Positions 30,399 through 35,658 of a stretch of DNA of 64,000 nucleotides are shown one piece after another (the first letter of the stretch is position 1; every line of letters starts with the position of its first letter). The stretch is from Sphingobacteriales bacterium. GTDB taxonomy: Bacteria; Bacteroidota; Bacteroidia; Chitinophagales; Chitinophagaceae. The notes beneath the pieces are model-generated. The model ran no database searches, was not told the origin of the DNA, and worked only from the letters and a program-made list of their open reading frames with translations. The DNA is taken from NCBI GenBank assembly GCA_016200915.1, contig JACQDV010000008.1:186001-250000 (forward strand). Reading direction: 5' to 3'. The translations under genes and the position numbers were made by a program.

Positions 30399-31151
30399 AT
30401 GTCTATAGCCGGAAAAAATTTAAAATACCTGCGCAAGTTGCGTGGGTGGACTCAGGAAGAATTTGCCAACAAGCTTGGTATTAAACGTTCATTGGTGGGA
30501 GCTTATGAAGAAGAGAGGGCCGATCCAAGATTAGAAGTATTGGAAGTAGTGAGTGAAATGTTTAAGCTCACATTAGATGAATTGCTTCGTAAAGATCTGA
30601 ATGAAACAAAAGGTAGCAGCTATTTAGCCAAACGTCGTCAGCAAAAAATGCTGGCTGATAGTAATGTTATCCATTTTGTTCCCATTAAAGCAGCCGCTGG
30701 TTATTTGGCCGGTTATGCTGATCCCGAGTTCATTGATGAACTCAATACTTTCACTTTACCCATGCTTACATCCGGTAATTACCGTGCATTTGAAATTGTG
30801 GGAGATTCCATGTTGCCTACACCAAGCGGCTCAGTAATTGTGGGAGAAAAAGTAGAAGGACTGGATGATGTGAAAAATAATTTCGCCTACATAGTAGTAA
30901 GCCGTAATGAAGGTATTGTTTACAAACGCATGCTGAAGAATAATAAAGTAAGAAATAAGTACACTTTAATGAGTGATAACCCGCAATACCAGCCTTACCA
31001 GGTAAATGCTGAAGATATTGTTGAAGTATGGCAGGCACAGGTGGTGATCAATAAAGTTGGTTCGCAGCAAAGATGGGATGTGGCATCGCTGGGGAATTTG
31101 GTAAGTAACCTGCAGGAACAGGTAAGTATGCTGAAACGTAAGATGAATTAA
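30399..31151 (+). CDS. LexA-like transcriptional regulator (XRE HTH + S24 peptidase domain)
   Basis: 250 residues. An XRE-type helix-turn-helix spans residues ~7-62 (LRKLRGWTQEEFANKLGIKRSLVGAYEEERADP). An S24/LexA-type domain spans about 95-225 with the nucleophile motif GDSMLPTP (Ser137) and general base in GIVYKRML (Lys176). A possible cleavage dipeptide lies in KAAAGYLAGY near residue 100. The C-terminus looks like a short coiled coil. Such proteins sense DNA damage or another signal by self-cleavage and derepress their targets. A perfect palindrome in its own promoter supports autoregulation. The gene is bracketed by inverted copies of a 135-bp repeat. Target genes are not evident here. 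Confidence 0.9.
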   Translation: MSIAGKNLKYLRKLRGWTQEEFANKLGIKRSLVGAYEEERADPRLEVLEVVSEMFKLTLDELLRKDLNETKGSSYLAKRRQQKMLADSNVIHFVPIKAAAGYLAGYADPEFIDELNTFTLPMLTSGNYRAFEIVGDSMLPTPSGSVIVGEKVEGLDDVKNNFAYIVVSRNEGIVYKRMLKNNKVRNKYTLMSDNPQYQPYQVNAEDIVEVWQAQVVINKVGSQQRWDVASLGNLVSNLQEQVSMLKRKMN

Positions 31152-31417: not shown

Positions 31418-32869
31418 ATGAATTCAATACCTGAACAGGTTAAATCTTTTTTTGAAAGCTGGAGACCCGGAACCGACATCACCGTTCAAACTTTGCCACA
31501 GGCTGGCAGCAACCGCCAGTATTTTCGTGTTCATCATAATAACAACTCTTACATTGTTACTTTCAATCCAACCAATGTACCGGAGAACAATGCTTTTATA
31601 GAATTCAGCCGCCACTTCAATACAAAACAATTGCCCGTACCTGAGATTTTATATGTGGATGTGGAAAAGACAAAATATATTCAATCTGATTTTGGTGATG
31701 TTTCTTTATTTCAGTTGGTACAAAAGCATGGTTATAACGATTATATTTTTGAACTCTATAAAAAGACATTTGCCCAGTTGGCAAGATTACAGGTAGAAGG
31801 GGGACAAAATTTAGATTACAACAATTGCATCGCCACCAAATCATTTGACAAGCAGGCCATCTATTCTGATCTGTTGTATTTCAAATATTATTTTCTCCGT
31901 GCTTTACAATTGCCTTACGATAAAAATTTATTGCTGAATGATTTTGAGATGCTCAGTAGTTATCTCGTGCAGGAAGATTTAAAATTCTTTATGCACCGTG
32001 ATTGCCAGAGCCGGAACGTAATGGTAAAAGATGACCGTGTTTATTTTATCGATTACCAGGGCGGGATGCAGGGAGCATTGCAATATGATGTTGCTTCTAT
32101 GTTATGGCAGGCAAGAGCAGCATTACCTTATGAGTGGAGAGATGAATTATTTCAATATCATTTTAGTCATGTTAATAGTTTACTGGGCAATCATCTTAAT
32201 AAAGAATACTTCAGTGATAATTATTATGGATTTGTGCTGATACGTATGTTACAAACATTGGGGGCTTACGGTTATCGTGGTTTGTTTGAACGCAAACCGT
32301 ATTTTATTTCCAGTATTCCGTTTGCTTTGCGAAACCTGCGATGGTTCCTGCAAAATAAAAATATACCCATTCGTGTGCCCGAACTGCAAAGAGTGTTATG
32401 GGCTATTGTGGATGATAAGGTTATTGAAAAATATGATATCGCCAAGGCAGGGCCGGATAGCAAACTGGTGATTAATATCAACAGTTTCTCCTATAAAAAA
32501 GGAATTCCGGAAGATACGGGAGTCAACGGTGGTGGTTATGTTTTTGATTGCAGAGGAATTTATAATCCCGGAAGATTTGATGAATTTAAAAAACTAACTG
32601 GCAGGGATAAAGAAGTGCAGGAGTTTTTATTACATCAGAGTGAGATGCCATCTTTCCTGCAATATGTTTATGGCATGGTAGATATTTCGGTGCAGGATTA
32701 TATCAAACGTGGATTTGAAAATTTAATGGTGAGTTTTGGTTGCACAGGTGGGCAGCATCGTTCTGTATTTGCAGCCGATAGTTTGGCAAAACATCTTAAA
32801 GAAAAGTTTGGAGTGAATGTAGTAGTGAATCATATAGAACAGGAATCAAAAAACTGGATAAACGGATAG
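31418..32869 (+). CDS. Fusion of an AmgK-like sugar kinase (APH fold) with a RapZ C-terminal domain
   Basis: 483 residues. Residues ~1-335 form an APH-type kinase: substrate loop AGSNRQYFRV, the catalytic FMHRDCQSRNVMV near 190 and the metal motif YFIDYQGG near 211. Residues ~348-483 match the RapZ C-terminal domain: INSFSYKKGIPEDTG, YVFDCRGIYNPGR, LTGRDKEVQEFL and SFGCTGGQHRSVFAADSLAKHL. In Pseudomonas AmgK is the anomeric kinase for MurNAc/GlcNAc, and its partner MurU makes UDP-MurNAc. Here the next gene, 3 bases away, is MurU-like, so a cell-wall-sugar recycling role is inferred. In enteric bacteria the RapZ C-terminal part binds glucosamine-6-phosphate and RNA, so this domain could sense the pathway. 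Confidence 0.85.
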   Translation: MNSIPEQVKSFFESWRPGTDITVQTLPQAGSNRQYFRVHHNNNSYIVTFNPTNVPENNAFIEFSRHFNTKQLPVPEILYVDVEKTKYIQSDFGDVSLFQLVQKHGYNDYIFELYKKTFAQLARLQVEGGQNLDYNNCIATKSFDKQAIYSDLLYFKYYFLRALQLPYDKNLLLNDFEMLSSYLVQEDLKFFMHRDCQSRNVMVKDDRVYFIDYQGGMQGALQYDVASMLWQARAALPYEWRDELFQYHFSHVNSLLGNHLNKEYFSDNYYGFVLIRMLQTLGAYGYRGLFERKPYFISSIPFALRNLRWFLQNKNIPIRVPELQRVLWAIVDDKVIEKYDIAKAGPDSKLVININSFSYKKGIPEDTGVNGGGYVFDCRGIYNPGRFDEFKKLTGRDKEVQEFLLHQSEMPSFLQYVYGMVDISVQDYIKRGFENLMVSFGCTGGQHRSVFAADSLAKHLKEKFGVNVVVNHIEQESKNWING

Positions 32870-32872
32870 GAT

Positions 32873-33589
32873 ATGAAAGCAATGATCTTTGCAGCAGGAT
32901 TGGGAACAAGGTTTAAGCCTTTTACTGATAAGCATCCAAAGGCACTGGCACTGGTAAATGGAAAATCATTACTACAAAGAAATATTGAATACCTGCAGCA
33001 ATATGGAATTAAGGATGTGGTGGTGAATGTTCATCATTTTGCCGACCAGTTAATTGATGCAATAGAGAAAAGTAATGGCTGGGGTTCTAAAATTATCATC
33101 AGTGATGAAACGAGTGAAGTATTAGAAACAGGCGGTGGGCTGTTGAAAGCAAGAAAACTTCTGGATGATGATGGACCTTTTATAACAACGAATGCTGACA
33201 TCCTTACCAATCTTAATATTCATCATTTATTGCAATATCATAAAGAGCAAAATGCATTGATCAGTTTTGGTGTTACCAATCGTAAAACATCCCGCTACTT
33301 TTTGTTTGATGAAGATAACCGCCTGTGCGGATGGCGAAATACAAAAACAGGTGAAGAAAGAATATCCATTAATAAGCCCGGTTTAGTAGAAAAGGCTTAT
33401 AGTTGTGTCGTAGTATTTGAGCCGGCTATATTTTCACTAATTAAGCAAACCGGTAAATTTTCTTTGATTGATGTGTATTTATCACTGGCGGCAGAACATA
33501 AAATAATGGCCTACGATCACACGGGTGACTTACTGGTGGATGTTGGTAAGCCGGAAGCAGTAGTAGAAGCAGAAAAATATTTTAAATAA
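32873..33589 (+). CDS. MurU-like sugar-1-phosphate nucleotidyltransferase
   Basis: 238 residues with the nucleotidyltransferase signature MKAMIFAAGLGTRFKPFTDKHPKALALVNGKSLLQRNIEYL. Conserved later parts include DVVVNVHHFADQLIDAI, EVLETGGGLLKAR and a metal-binding FITTNADIL. It belongs to the short, single-domain group that includes MurU (MurNAc-1-phosphate uridylyltransferase) and mannose/glucose-1-phosphate transferases. The adjacent AmgK-like kinase favours a MurU-type role, but the sugar specificity is inferred from context only. Confidence 0.85.
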   Translation: MKAMIFAAGLGTRFKPFTDKHPKALALVNGKSLLQRNIEYLQQYGIKDVVVNVHHFADQLIDAIEKSNGWGSKIIISDETSEVLETGGGLLKARKLLDDDGPFITTNADILTNLNIHHLLQYHKEQNALISFGVTNRKTSRYFLFDEDNRLCGWRNTKTGEERISINKPGLVEKAYSCVVVFEPAIFSLIKQTGKFSLIDVYLSLAAEHKIMAYDHTGDLLVDVGKPEAVVEAEKYFK

Positions 33590-33630: not shown

Positions 33631-34089
33631 ATGGTGGCGATACAATTTATTCATCCCAAAAAGAATCAGTCAACAGGTGAGCAGCCAAATGCAATAGCAA
33701 AAGCTTACCCCGTTCCGCAAGAGGTGACGGATATTTTAAAAGTAAGTTGTTATGATTGTCATAGTAACAATACATCGTATCCATGGTACAATAATATACA
33801 ACCTGTTGCCTGGTGGATGAATAATCATGTGAATGGTGAAAAGCATGAATTAAATTTTGATGAGTTTGCCGGCTATACTCCTAAAAGAGCACACCGCAAA
33901 TTAGATGAACTGATTGACCAGGTGAAAGAAGGAGAGATGCCATTGACCAGTTATACATGGATACATAAAAATGCCGTTCTATCCGATGCGCAAAAAAATA
34001 CATTGCTCAATTGGGCGCAAACTACCATGGATCCTATTGCTTTGAAGAATAATCTTCCCAAAGAAGAAAAACATAAAGAAAGACCGTAA
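33631..34089 (+). CDS. Haem-binding domain protein with apparent N-terminal frameshift
   Basis: 152 residues as written from ATG 33631. A haem_bd-type domain carries a CxxCH in VSCYDCHSNNTSYPWYNNIQPVAWWMNNHVNGEKHELNFDEF, then a helix MPLTSYTWIHKNAVLSDAQKNTLLNWA. Relatives start with a hydrophobic export signal running into VAIQFIHP. That signal is present upstream in another frame: ATG 33596 reads MIKKILIVLLIV, then shifts at ~33629-33632. One missing base would restore a single reading frame starting 7 bases after the MurU-like stop. Either the sequence has an indel or this copy has lost its export signal. It is predicted to bind haem in the periplasm. Confidence 0.8.
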   Translation: MVAIQFIHPKKNQSTGEQPNAIAKAYPVPQEVTDILKVSCYDCHSNNTSYPWYNNIQPVAWWMNNHVNGEKHELNFDEFAGYTPKRAHRKLDELIDQVKEGEMPLTSYTWIHKNAVLSDAQKNTLLNWAQTTMDPIALKNNLPKEEKHKERP

Positions 34090-34091
34090 CA

Positions 34092-34736
34092 ATGACTCCT
34101 CCTGTAAAATTTGTGCTGAAAGAAAATGTGTTTTGGTTATCCTCCGAGAAAGCAATTTTCTGGGAAGATGAAAATGCATTGATCATATCCGATCTTCATT
34201 TTGGAAAGACTGGTCATTTTCGCAAATCAGGTATAGCTGTTCCACAAGCTGTGTACAAAAAAGACTTGCAGCGGTTATTTCATCTCATTCAATTTTTTAA
34301 ACCGCAACAATTGTTGATTGTAGGCGATATGTTTCACAGCGAAGAGAATAAAGAGATAGAATTATTTAAACGCTGGCGAAATGATATTGAACATGTATCA
34401 GTAAAACTAATCAAAGGCAATCATGATATTTTAGAAGAACGCCTGTATGAAGAAATGCAGATAGAGTTATTTGCAGATGATATGCGGATTGATGATTTTA
34501 TTTTTACCCATCATCCGGTTGAAAATAATGAAGCCTATGTTTTTAGCGGACATATTCATCCCGGTGTAAGATTAAATGGTTTGGGTAAACAATCGTTGCG
34601 GTTTCCCTGTTTTTATTTCACTCCTTCACAGGCAATATTGCCTGCCTTTGGTGGTTTTACAGGTTTTGTTGTTGTTGAACCAACTAGGCATGATAAAATA
34701 TTTGCCATCGTGAATAATTCTGTTGTGCCGCTGTAA
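34092..34736 (+). CDS. pdeM: Ligase-associated DNA damage response endonuclease PdeM
   Basis: 214 residues, calcineurin-like metallophosphoesterase. All metal-ligand motifs are visible: ISDLHFGKTGHFRKSG, VGDMFHSE, GNHD, THHP and SGHIHPGV. The HFGKxxHFRKxGI segment is typical of PdeM, the nuclease that accompanies the bacterial ligase/Lhr-like-helicase repair set. The partner DEXH helicase of that set lies at 39.1-41.6 kb on the opposite strand. The ATG begins two bases after the preceding stop, showing operon membership. Confidence 0.9.
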   Translation: MTPPVKFVLKENVFWLSSEKAIFWEDENALIISDLHFGKTGHFRKSGIAVPQAVYKKDLQRLFHLIQFFKPQQLLIVGDMFHSEENKEIELFKRWRNDIEHVSVKLIKGNHDILEERLYEEMQIELFADDMRIDDFIFTHHPVENNEAYVFSGHIHPGVRLNGLGKQSLRFPCFYFTPSQAILPAFGGFTGFVVVEPTRHDKIFAIVNNSVVPL

Positions 34737-34812
34737 TTATGGGTGAAAAACTTTACATATTGCTTACGATTCAATTTATGTTCATCCAGTACCTGAGGGA
34801 CATCGTTTTCCA

Positions 34813-35658
34813 ATGATTAAGTATGAATTGATTTCGGGACAATTATTGCATGAAGGAACCATTAAGCAGCACAATCTATACTCGCCGGAACCTTGTAATG
34901 AACAAACCATTTTACTAACACATACAAAAGAATACTGGAATAAGCTTAAGTTTCAAACGCTATCAGCTTCGGAACAAAGAAGAATTGGATTTCCCCAATC
35001 ACCTGAATTAACCATGCGGGAGATCATCATTACACAGGGCACAATAGATTGCTGTTTGTATGCCATGCAAAATGGTGCGGCGTTAAATGTTGCAGGCGGA
35101 ACACATCATGCCTATGCTGATAAAGGAGAAGGTTTTTGTTTGCTCAATGATTTTGCTGTGGCAGCCAATTATTTGCTTCATAAAAAATTAGCTGATAAAA
35201 TTTTAATTATCGACCTGGATGTTCACCAGGGAAATGGTACTGCATCTATCTTTAAAAACAATCCTAATGTTTTTACTTTTAGTATGCATGGAAAAGATAA
35301 TTATCCTTTTCACAAAGAATTGTCTGACCTTGATGTTGCATTGCCAAATGGAATAAATGATGATGAATATCTTTCTTTACTAGAGGAAAATTTGAAACTA
35401 TTATGCGCAGGAGTAAAACCATCTTTTGCTTTCTTTTTATCAGGAGTTGATATTTTATCTACTGACAAATTTGGCAAATTAAAGATCAGCATGGAAGGAT
35501 GTAAGCGAAGAGATGAGTTGGTGTTTACTTATCTTAAACAAAATAATATTCCCTGTACTGTGGCTATGGGCGGAGGTTATTCACCAGATGTAAAATTAAT
35601 TGTGGAAGCACATTGCAATACATTCAGGCTTGCAAAAGATATTTATCAATTATTATAA
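34813..35658 (+). CDS. Histone-deacetylase-like amidohydrolase with apparent N-terminal frameshift
   Basis: 281 residues from ATG 34813. Catalytic features: GGTHHAYADKGEGFCLLNDFAVA (tandem His), DLDVHQGNG (zinc Asp/His), SGVDILSTDKFGKL (zinc Asp) and GGGYS. The frame is open back to 34747 and encodes IAYDSIYVHPVPEGHRFPM, the conserved N-terminus of this family, but no start codon lies there. ATG 34739, two bases after the pdeM stop, is out of frame by one. One extra A in the A5 run at 34746-34750 would join them as MGEKTLHIAYDS. The family removes acetyl groups from lysines, polyamines or acetoin-related substrates. Substrate unknown. Confidence 0.85.
   Translation: MIKYELISGQLLHEGTIKQHNLYSPEPCNEQTILLTHTKEYWNKLKFQTLSASEQRRIGFPQSPELTMREIIITQGTIDCCLYAMQNGAALNVAGGTHHAYADKGEGFCLLNDFAVAANYLLHKKLADKILIIDLDVHQGNGTASIFKNNPNVFTFSMHGKDNYPFHKELSDLDVALPNGINDDEYLSLLEENLKLLCAGVKPSFAFFLSGVDILSTDKFGKLKISMEGCKRRDELVFTYLKQNNIPCTVAMGGGYSPDVKLIVEAHCNTFRLAKDIYQLL

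Follow-up and report, generated by a model that had tools for sequence, protein, structure and literature searches.

A kinase–RapZ_C fusion gene adjoining a MurU-like gene

This report concerns a gene in a 64,000-nucleotide stretch (the window) of contig JACQDV010000008.1, from a Sphingobacteriales bacterium of the family Chitinophagaceae, in which a sugar kinase is joined to the C-terminal domain of RapZ (RapZ_C). The span 31418-33589 consists of two open reading frames (ORFs), both on the forward strand and 3 bp apart. Specifically, the first one (31418-32869) codes for an APH/AmgK-type kinase followed by RapZ_C, for which phosphorylation of N-acetylmuramic acid (MurNAc) or N-acetylglucosamine (GlcNAc) at C1 is predicted. 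The features of the span are the following:

31418-32869, forward strand: fusion gene, AmgK-like sugar kinase plus RapZ C-terminal domain, 483 aa, with matches in Pfam, NCBIfam and the PDB
31484-32161, forward strand: APH/AmgK-type kinase domain, residues 23-248 (Pfam APH PF01636, 59.5 bits, cut-off 23.2)
31994-32017, forward strand: kinase catalytic loop HRDCQSRN, residues 193-200; R194, D195 and N200 invariant in 44/44 fusions
32048-32062, forward strand: kinase motif IDYQG, residues 211-215, presumably metal-binding from what we know of the APH family; D212 and Q214 invariant in 44/44 fusions
32468-32839, forward strand: RapZ C-terminal domain, residues 351-474 (PF22740, 117.7 bits, cut-off 27)
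32525-32536, forward strand: NGGG, residues 370-373, closing a five-residue insertion; in 25/25 kinase-linked domains and 0/10 canonical RapZ
32546-32548, forward strand: Asp377, equivalent to E. coli RapZ D182; invariant in 25/25 kinase-linked and 10/10 canonical domains
32741-32764, forward strand: CTGGQHRS, residues 442-449, a C-x5-R-S phosphatase-type loop flanked by strand 435-442 and helix 448-464
32873-33589, forward strand: MurU-like sugar-1-phosphate nucleotidyltransferase, 238 aa (NCBIfam MurU NF045761, 128.2 bits)

A preliminary description of this DNA had proposed a kinase fused to the RapZ C-terminal domain, and the presence of PF01636 and PF22740 in one 483-aa ORF bears this out. 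The motifs named there (HRD, DYQG and GCTGGQHRS) are all present, as HRDCQSRN at residues 193-200, IDYQG at 211-215 and GCTGGQHRS at 441-449. The span as a whole is not a single 2.2-kb fusion, MurU being a separate neighbouring gene. The N-terminal P-loop domain of RapZ (PF03668) is absent from the fusion protein by Pfam scan and has no match in the source genome, with 6/14 control genomes positive; the full-length RapZ model NF003828 reaches 103.7 bits over the C-terminal half only, missing its cut-off of 244. The same Pfam scan detected no haloacid dehalogenase (HAD) domain in the fusion.

The AmgK models NF045759 and NF045698 are the top non-RapZ NCBIfam matches of the fusion (52.8 and 33.1 bits), in agreement with the AmgK-like kinase previously suggested, although these scores lie far under the curated cut-offs (550 and 500 bits). 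The catalytic residues of the APH family, R194, D195, N200 and D212, are kept in all 44 aligned fusions (18 found by pattern plus 26 others, an alignment quoted here for the kinase half). Against the PDB, the fusion matched E. coli RapZ over residues 349-474 and the APH-type protein 3csv over 26-301.

As for the neighbouring 238-aa protein, MurU NF045761 ranks first of 30 NCBIfam models, even if its cut-off of 250 bits is missed, and MurU models outrank those of other sugar nucleotidyltransferases. Its nearest PDB relatives are 4y7t (72.1 bits), a nucleotidyl transferase which we take to be MurU, and 8hhd (66.7 bits), titled N-acetylmuramate alpha-1-phosphate uridylyltransferase. The earlier assignment as a MurU-like enzyme is therefore upheld.

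Conserved residues and predicted fold of the RapZ_C domain

The C-terminal domain of the fusion shares 34-35% identity over 123-127 residues with RapZ/YvcJ proteins. To describe its conservation, we used 24 kinase-linked domains found with hidden Markov models (HMMs) plus one plasmid record (25 in all) and ten canonical RapZ domains. The nine canonical domains not from E. coli were chosen by a pattern that fixed most of the loop residues and left the Cys free in all but one segment. In E. coli numbering, C247, R253, S254, D182, R184, N188 and H276 are identical in all 35 domains; hence, the Cys, Arg and Asp vary in none of the 25 kinase-linked domains, which also retain the phosphate pocket residues T248, G249, H252 and R253.

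Several features set the fusion apart from RapZ/YvcJ: the P-loop N-terminal half is replaced by an APH kinase; a five-residue insertion ending in GGG is accompanied by a change of D178 to Gly in 25/25 kinase-linked domains, this position being Asp in 10/10 canonical RapZ; and the H190 position is Gly in 25/25, compared with His in 7/10, Tyr in 2/10 and Phe in 1/10 of the canonical set. In addition, the C-terminal tail has a net charge of 0 or below in 23/25 kinase-linked domains and 3/10 canonical ones, without a basic tail of the E. coli type. The fusion thus lacks both E. coli RNA-adapter features, the pocket H190 and the basic tail.

The pattern C-x5-R-S is the signature of cysteine-dependent phosphatases. 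GCTGGQHRS fits C-x5-R(S/T) and sits, as in those enzymes, between a strand and a helix: in the AlphaFold2 model (RapZ_C pLDDT 94; whole fusion pLDDT 92.2, pTM 0.82), Cys442 closes the strand and Arg448 opens the helix. The model of the domain superimposes on the E. coli RapZ C-terminal domain 5o5s with Z 19.7 and rmsd 1.6 over 123 aligned residues. After RapZ, the closest folds are phosphofructokinase (PFK) subdomains, with Z 6-7. The fold is nearer to these than to human DUSP1 (6d67), the only protein tyrosine or dual-specificity phosphatase (PTP/DSP) among the 50 entries of the VIA list, which is at noise level with Z 5.1 and rank 50.

Distribution of the fusion

In a sample of 198 Bacteroidota genomes, a relative of the fusion protein (kinase) was found in 67, and RapZ_C in 24, all 24 of which also have the kinase. 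The two domains share one ORF in 20 of the 24, while in the remaining 4 RapZ_C is a small gene of its own. Specifically, in three of them (L019, L023, L024) the kinase, a RapZ_C gene of 133-135 aa and MurU are consecutive genes, whereas G180 has its kinase on one contig and RapZ_C on another. A MurU-like gene was located inside the 1.5-kb flank in 18/24. As both domains share an ORF in 20/198 genomes, with four separate-gene cases besides, the fusion is no assembly accident and recurs across the phylum sample.

When named genomes were scanned for the RapZ_C domain, at least 587 stretches matched, the best 80 of which were kept. These 80 loci were found with the patterns GCTGGQHR and [NH]GGG[FY]VFD, made from the domain itself, and are no test of loop conservation. 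One-ORF kinase–RapZ_C arrangements occur in 75 of the best 80 and other arrangements in 5; MurU is directly downstream or inside the ORF in 51. Among the best 80, the nearest relative is Agriterribacter humi (75% identity across the domain), and Bacteroides, Phocaeicola, Prevotella, Muribaculum, Chryseobacterium, one Ignavibacteriales and one Delongbacteria metagenome-assembled genome (MAG) are represented. How widespread the fusion is, a point the preliminary description had listed for checking, is answered by these counts: it is common in Bacteroidota.

One of the 75 one-ORF loci, L124:3398-5653 from the Bacteroidaceae MAG RGIG10220, carries kinase, RapZ_C and a MurU-like domain in one 751-aa ORF without a stop. 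This ORF, the only one of its kind seen, is a possible trifunctional enzyme; as it comes from a single MAG contig, it may also be an error. Other arrangements were observed as well. In L106:1750-5411 (Bacteroidaceae MAG), an AmpG-like gene, identified by phmmer, lies between MurU and the fusion, the former two on the reverse strand and the latter on the forward strand. L149:5010-6112 (Bacteroides sp. MAG) has RapZ_C and MurU genes without an adjoining kinase, and the gene upstream of them looks by eye like ftsZ. Chryseobacterium oranimense (L174) has a stand-alone homologue of RapZ_C. In L161:1679-3080 and L159:4016-5408, kinase and RapZ_C are in different overlapping frames, representing either overlapping genes or MAG frameshifts.

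In two plasmid-collection records, one from Bacteroides finegoldii and the other from Parabacteroides distasonis, the fusion goes by the name 'RNase adapter RapZ'. In conclusion, the fusion is widespread and misnamed in databases.

Association with AnmK and MurQ in the phylum sample

As a test set beforehand, AnmK was expected to be present, and MurQ absent, where RapZ_C occurs. AnmK was found in 17/24 RapZ_C genomes and 0/43 kinase-only genomes; in the source genome it is G000:C19. MurQ was found in 11/24 and 0/43, respectively. Seven genomes from five families have AnmK without MurQ, and all seven carry kinase and RapZ_C. The exclusion of MurQ was discarded as evidence for RapZ_C: since kinase-only genomes lack MurQ as well (0/43 here, 0/4 in the second sample described below), it speaks, taken alone, for AmgK and not for RapZ_C.

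The MupP model NF009696 (cut-off 359 bits) gave no match over the cut-off in 32 genomes. The best HAD protein scored 106.2 bits, below the 108.9 bits of E. coli Gph, which is not a MupP.

AmpG-linked BadF-family kinases

A strong BadF-family match was found in each of the seven RapZ_C genomes without AnmK. One of these kinases was compared with the PDB and proved closest to a MurNAc/GlcNAc kinase, and the AmpG-linked kinase scores on the NagK model below its cut-off. The kinase gene adjoins an AmpG-like cluster member in 6/7 of these genomes and is one gene away in the other (G156); including G132, the figure is 7/8. A NagZ-like GH3/beta-lactamase cluster member is present in 5/8. HMM scans covered two of the AmpG-like genes, one NagZ-like gene and one kinase, the remainder being grouped by phmmer. 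MurNAc, GlcNAc and anhydro-MurNAc are possible substrates of the AmpG-linked kinase.

In a set of 8 kinase-only genomes, none showed a BadF-type kinase match over the cut-off. PF01869 was discarded as a simple indicator of sugar 6-kinases, having hit 18 places in 9/35 kinase-only genomes; at 15 of these 18 places, in the nine genomes, no ORF matched the AmpG-linked kinase by phmmer (E up to 1).

At L066, L067, L069 and L071, a NagK/MurK-like kinase gene is lined up, in operon-like fashion, with genes for an AmpG-like transporter and for a NagZ-like GH3 protein that carries a beta-lactamase-family domain; all three genes were HMM-scanned in L069 only, those of the others being grouped by phmmer.

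A second sample from one family

The second sample was a single family of 79 genomes, of which 15 were shared with the first sample and 64 were new; here, a gene counted as a 6-kinase if it was AnmK or matched the AmpG-linked kinase. Kinase plus RapZ_C was found in 27/79 genomes, the kinase alone in 4, a fragment in 2 and no kinase in 46. Most of the 27 have a single frame, the departures being two genes in G031, an internal stop in G213 and two pieces in G230.

A 6-kinase accompanies kinase plus RapZ_C in 24/27 genomes and the kinase alone in 0/4 (Fisher p = 0.001, relatedness ignored). MurQ, in turn, was found in 1/27 genomes with kinase plus RapZ_C compared with 38/46 without kinase (p about 1e-11, again ignoring relatedness). 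MurQ or kinase plus RapZ_C is present in 62 of the 68 genomes that have a 6-kinase, and only one has both. The alternation between MurQ and the fusion is seen even within genus g57.

Genes around the locus

Upstream of the fusion, on the same strand, 30399-31151 codes for an HTH_3 plus Peptidase_S24 (LexA/CI-like) regulator. After MurU, also on the same strand, 33631-35658 holds genes for a haem-binding domain protein, a PdeM-type phosphoesterase (TIGR04123, 228 bits) and a histone-deacetylase-like protein. Flanking genes other than MurU were considered as partners and discarded; those scanned, which include thiL, menA, menC, GNAT, a nuclease with a type IX secretion (T9SS) tail, an aldo-keto reductase and a tyrosine ammonia-lyase, show no common theme.

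Discussion

In Pseudomonas, AnmK produces MurNAc-6-phosphate (MurNAc-6P), MupP converts it to MurNAc, AmgK to MurNAc-1P and MurU to UDP-MurNAc (PMC5371407). In E. coli K-12, loss of murQ leads to a build-up of MurNAc-6P (PMC5371407). The locus described here resembles this route in that an AmgK-like kinase adjoins a MurU-like enzyme and AnmK is encoded in the genome. It differs in that no MupP was found with a narrow model, RapZ_C is fused to the kinase at the place of MupP, and MurQ is kept in the source genome. From the observed architecture, conservation, gene linkage and co-occurrence we infer each catalytic step, and the substrate, of the following scheme. A 6-kinase, either AnmK or, in other genomes, a NagK/MurK-like kinase encoded close to an AmpG-type transporter, would yield MurNAc-6P. 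RapZ_C would hydrolyse the 6-phosphate through its C-x5-R loop, with Cys442 as the nucleophile, Arg448 binding the phosphate and Asp377 as candidate acid. The fused AmgK-like kinase would phosphorylate C1 of the freed MurNAc, and the neighbouring MurU-like enzyme would make UDP-MurNAc. In this way RapZ_C would take the role of the HAD phosphatase MupP, and the fusion would pass the sugar from the phosphatase site to the kinase site. We give an even chance to this proposal, namely that the fusion is a bifunctional MurNAc-6-phosphate phosphatase/MurNAc-1-kinase of peptidoglycan salvage acting in place of MupP.

A stand-alone RapZ_C gene lying between those of the kinase and MurU, together with the single ORF of L124, makes a pattern of consecutive pathway steps. 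A pathway enzyme therefore fits RapZ_C better than a regulatory tail does, given the stand-alone genes and the co-occurrence with the expected makers of MurNAc-6P. The preliminary description had instead seen in RapZ_C a possible sensor, with the glucosamine-6-phosphate (GlcN6P) and RNA binding of the enteric domain in mind. A regulatory sensor of GlcN6P or MurNAc-6P, tuning the fused kinase allosterically and without catalysis, agrees with the report that the E. coli RapZ C-terminal domain binds GlcN6P with a KD of 10 nM at a putative site described as highly conserved among RapZ homologs (PMC7073468), and with the T248, G249, H252 and R253 pocket retained in 25/25; moreover, a sensor of MurNAc-6P would likewise track 6-kinases. 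This part of the earlier idea is weakened by the altered H190 and D178 positions in 25/25, the phosphatase-type loop, the stand-alone genes between kinase and MurU and the 6-kinase association. A sensor would also leave MurNAc-6P without a known consumer in the genomes with AnmK and without MurQ, 7/7 of which have RapZ_C. In E. coli RapZ, exchange of pocket residues including H190 abolished RNA binding (PMC9841335). We hold a sensor to be possible but rather unlikely, and the phosphatase reading to fit better than a GlcN6P sensor.

The substrate could also be another amino sugar. RapZ_C would then be a Cys phosphatase, or a phospho-Cys 6-to-1 phosphate transferase, for GlcNAc-6P or GlcN-6P, and the gene pair would make UDP-GlcNAc or another UDP-sugar. 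AmgK is titled a MurNAc/GlcNAc kinase in NCBIfam, the BadF kinases resemble MurNAc/GlcNAc kinases with their sub-cut-off score on NagK, and E. coli RapZ binds GlcN6P; the AnmK association with MurQ exclusion points to MurNAc-6P, however, and the rank of the MurU models above those of other sugar nucleotidyltransferases argues in the same direction, so that we consider this account distinctly unlikely. Very improbable, in our judgement, is a role in dimerisation or as a scaffold that holds kinase and MurU together, the phosphate site being vestigial: the E. coli C-terminal domain does dimerise (PMC7199280), and the fusion and operon linkage are compatible with such a role, but invariant Cys, Arg and Asp would not be needed for it and the presence mainly with 6-kinases would be left unexplained.

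Several observations weigh against the phosphatase proposal. The loop could bind phosphate without hydrolysing it; the structure search found no PTP above noise, none being among the best 50 of 215 Foldseek matches to the RapZ_C model; and our literature search returned no report of activity of the isolated domain. The absent basic tail is, taken alone, weak evidence, because 3/10 canonical RapZ tails are neutral or acidic too and an RNA-binding tail is reported for Enterobacteriaceae only, being missing from most RapZ outside the enterobacteria (PMC7073468). The absence of MupP is only suggestive and a diverged MupP may be present, because the narrow model also misses all 14 controls, Caulobacter included.

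Gene content also adds points on this side. The expected absence of MurQ failed in 11/24 RapZ_C genomes, among them the source genome, where MurQ adjoins a weakly BadF-like ORF; MurNAc-6P therefore has another exit there. AnmK is missing from 7/24 RapZ_C genomes; should the BadF kinase of these genomes use free MurNAc, removal of the phosphate would be futile. The BadF link was spotted only after this gap, and in the family of the second sample 64/79 genomes have the BadF kinase, fusion-less members included. In that family, 3/27 kinase plus RapZ_C genomes (93, 81 and 77% complete) have no 6-kinase found, and 6/68 genomes with a 6-kinase have neither MurQ nor the fusion (four being 66-87% and two 93-94% complete). 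AnmK is rarer there with the fusion (3/27) than without the kinase (24/46), and was dropped as a tracker by itself; MurQ exclusion and any 6-kinase do track the fusion. Finally, a single family supplies 42 of the phylum sample's 43 kinase-only genomes, which are thus not independent, and all p-values ignore relatedness.

The likeness of the E. coli RapZ loop to Cys-dependent phosphatases, with proposed hydrolysis of GlcN6P, is already in print (Khan and Gorke 2020, PMC7199280), as is the likeness of its C-terminal domain to a PFK subdomain (PMC5737377). Both C247A and C247S variants of E. coli RapZ were reported inactive, a catalytic role of the thiol being suggested (Islam et al. 2022, PMC9841335), and the crystal with GlcN6P showed density of probably a 'chemically transformed product' (PMC9841335). 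For a species distant from E. coli, Khan et al. cite a paper from 2018 whose title speaks of 'ATPase and phosphatase activity' (PMC7073468). In the same phylum as our organism, Tannerella forsythia has a MurT-MurK-MurQ salvage route, and AmgK/MurU have been proposed there, in accounts whose relevant passages, unlike the fusion in the window, mention no RapZ domain (PMC7670621, PMC5790795). Uptake of MurNAc probes has been reported for E. coli that produces AmgK and MurU of T. forsythia (PMC13041923). Parabacteroides distasonis, a member of the Tannerellaceae, has the fusion.

The arrangement had been put forward as not yet described. A non-exhaustive search of titles and abstract openings found no description of a kinase–RapZ_C fusion and no RapZ joined to AmgK or MurU; the claim has to be qualified in that the fusion is common and already carries a database name in two records.

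More broadly, and with more doubt than trust, we suggest that RapZ_C domains may form a separate family of C-x5-R amino-sugar-6-phosphate phosphatases. Their Bacteroidota branch, joined to AmgK and MurU by fusion or in an operon, would serve the phylum as its MurNAc-6P phosphatase, with an evolutionary origin separate from MupP and with all three steps on one polypeptide in at least one MAG, and the enterobacterial sensor and RNA-adapter roles would be later reuse.

The soluble fusion offers a simple system for a question raised by E. coli RapZ, namely whether the conserved Cys loop hydrolyses amino-sugar phosphates. If the phosphatase proposal is true, the misleading name 'RNase adapter RapZ' would be corrected, and the finding would fill the place of the MurNAc-6P phosphatase in the salvage route of Bacteroidota, including those of the gut. 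It also bears on a possible bypass, in this phylum, of MurA-dependent synthesis, the target of fosfomycin.

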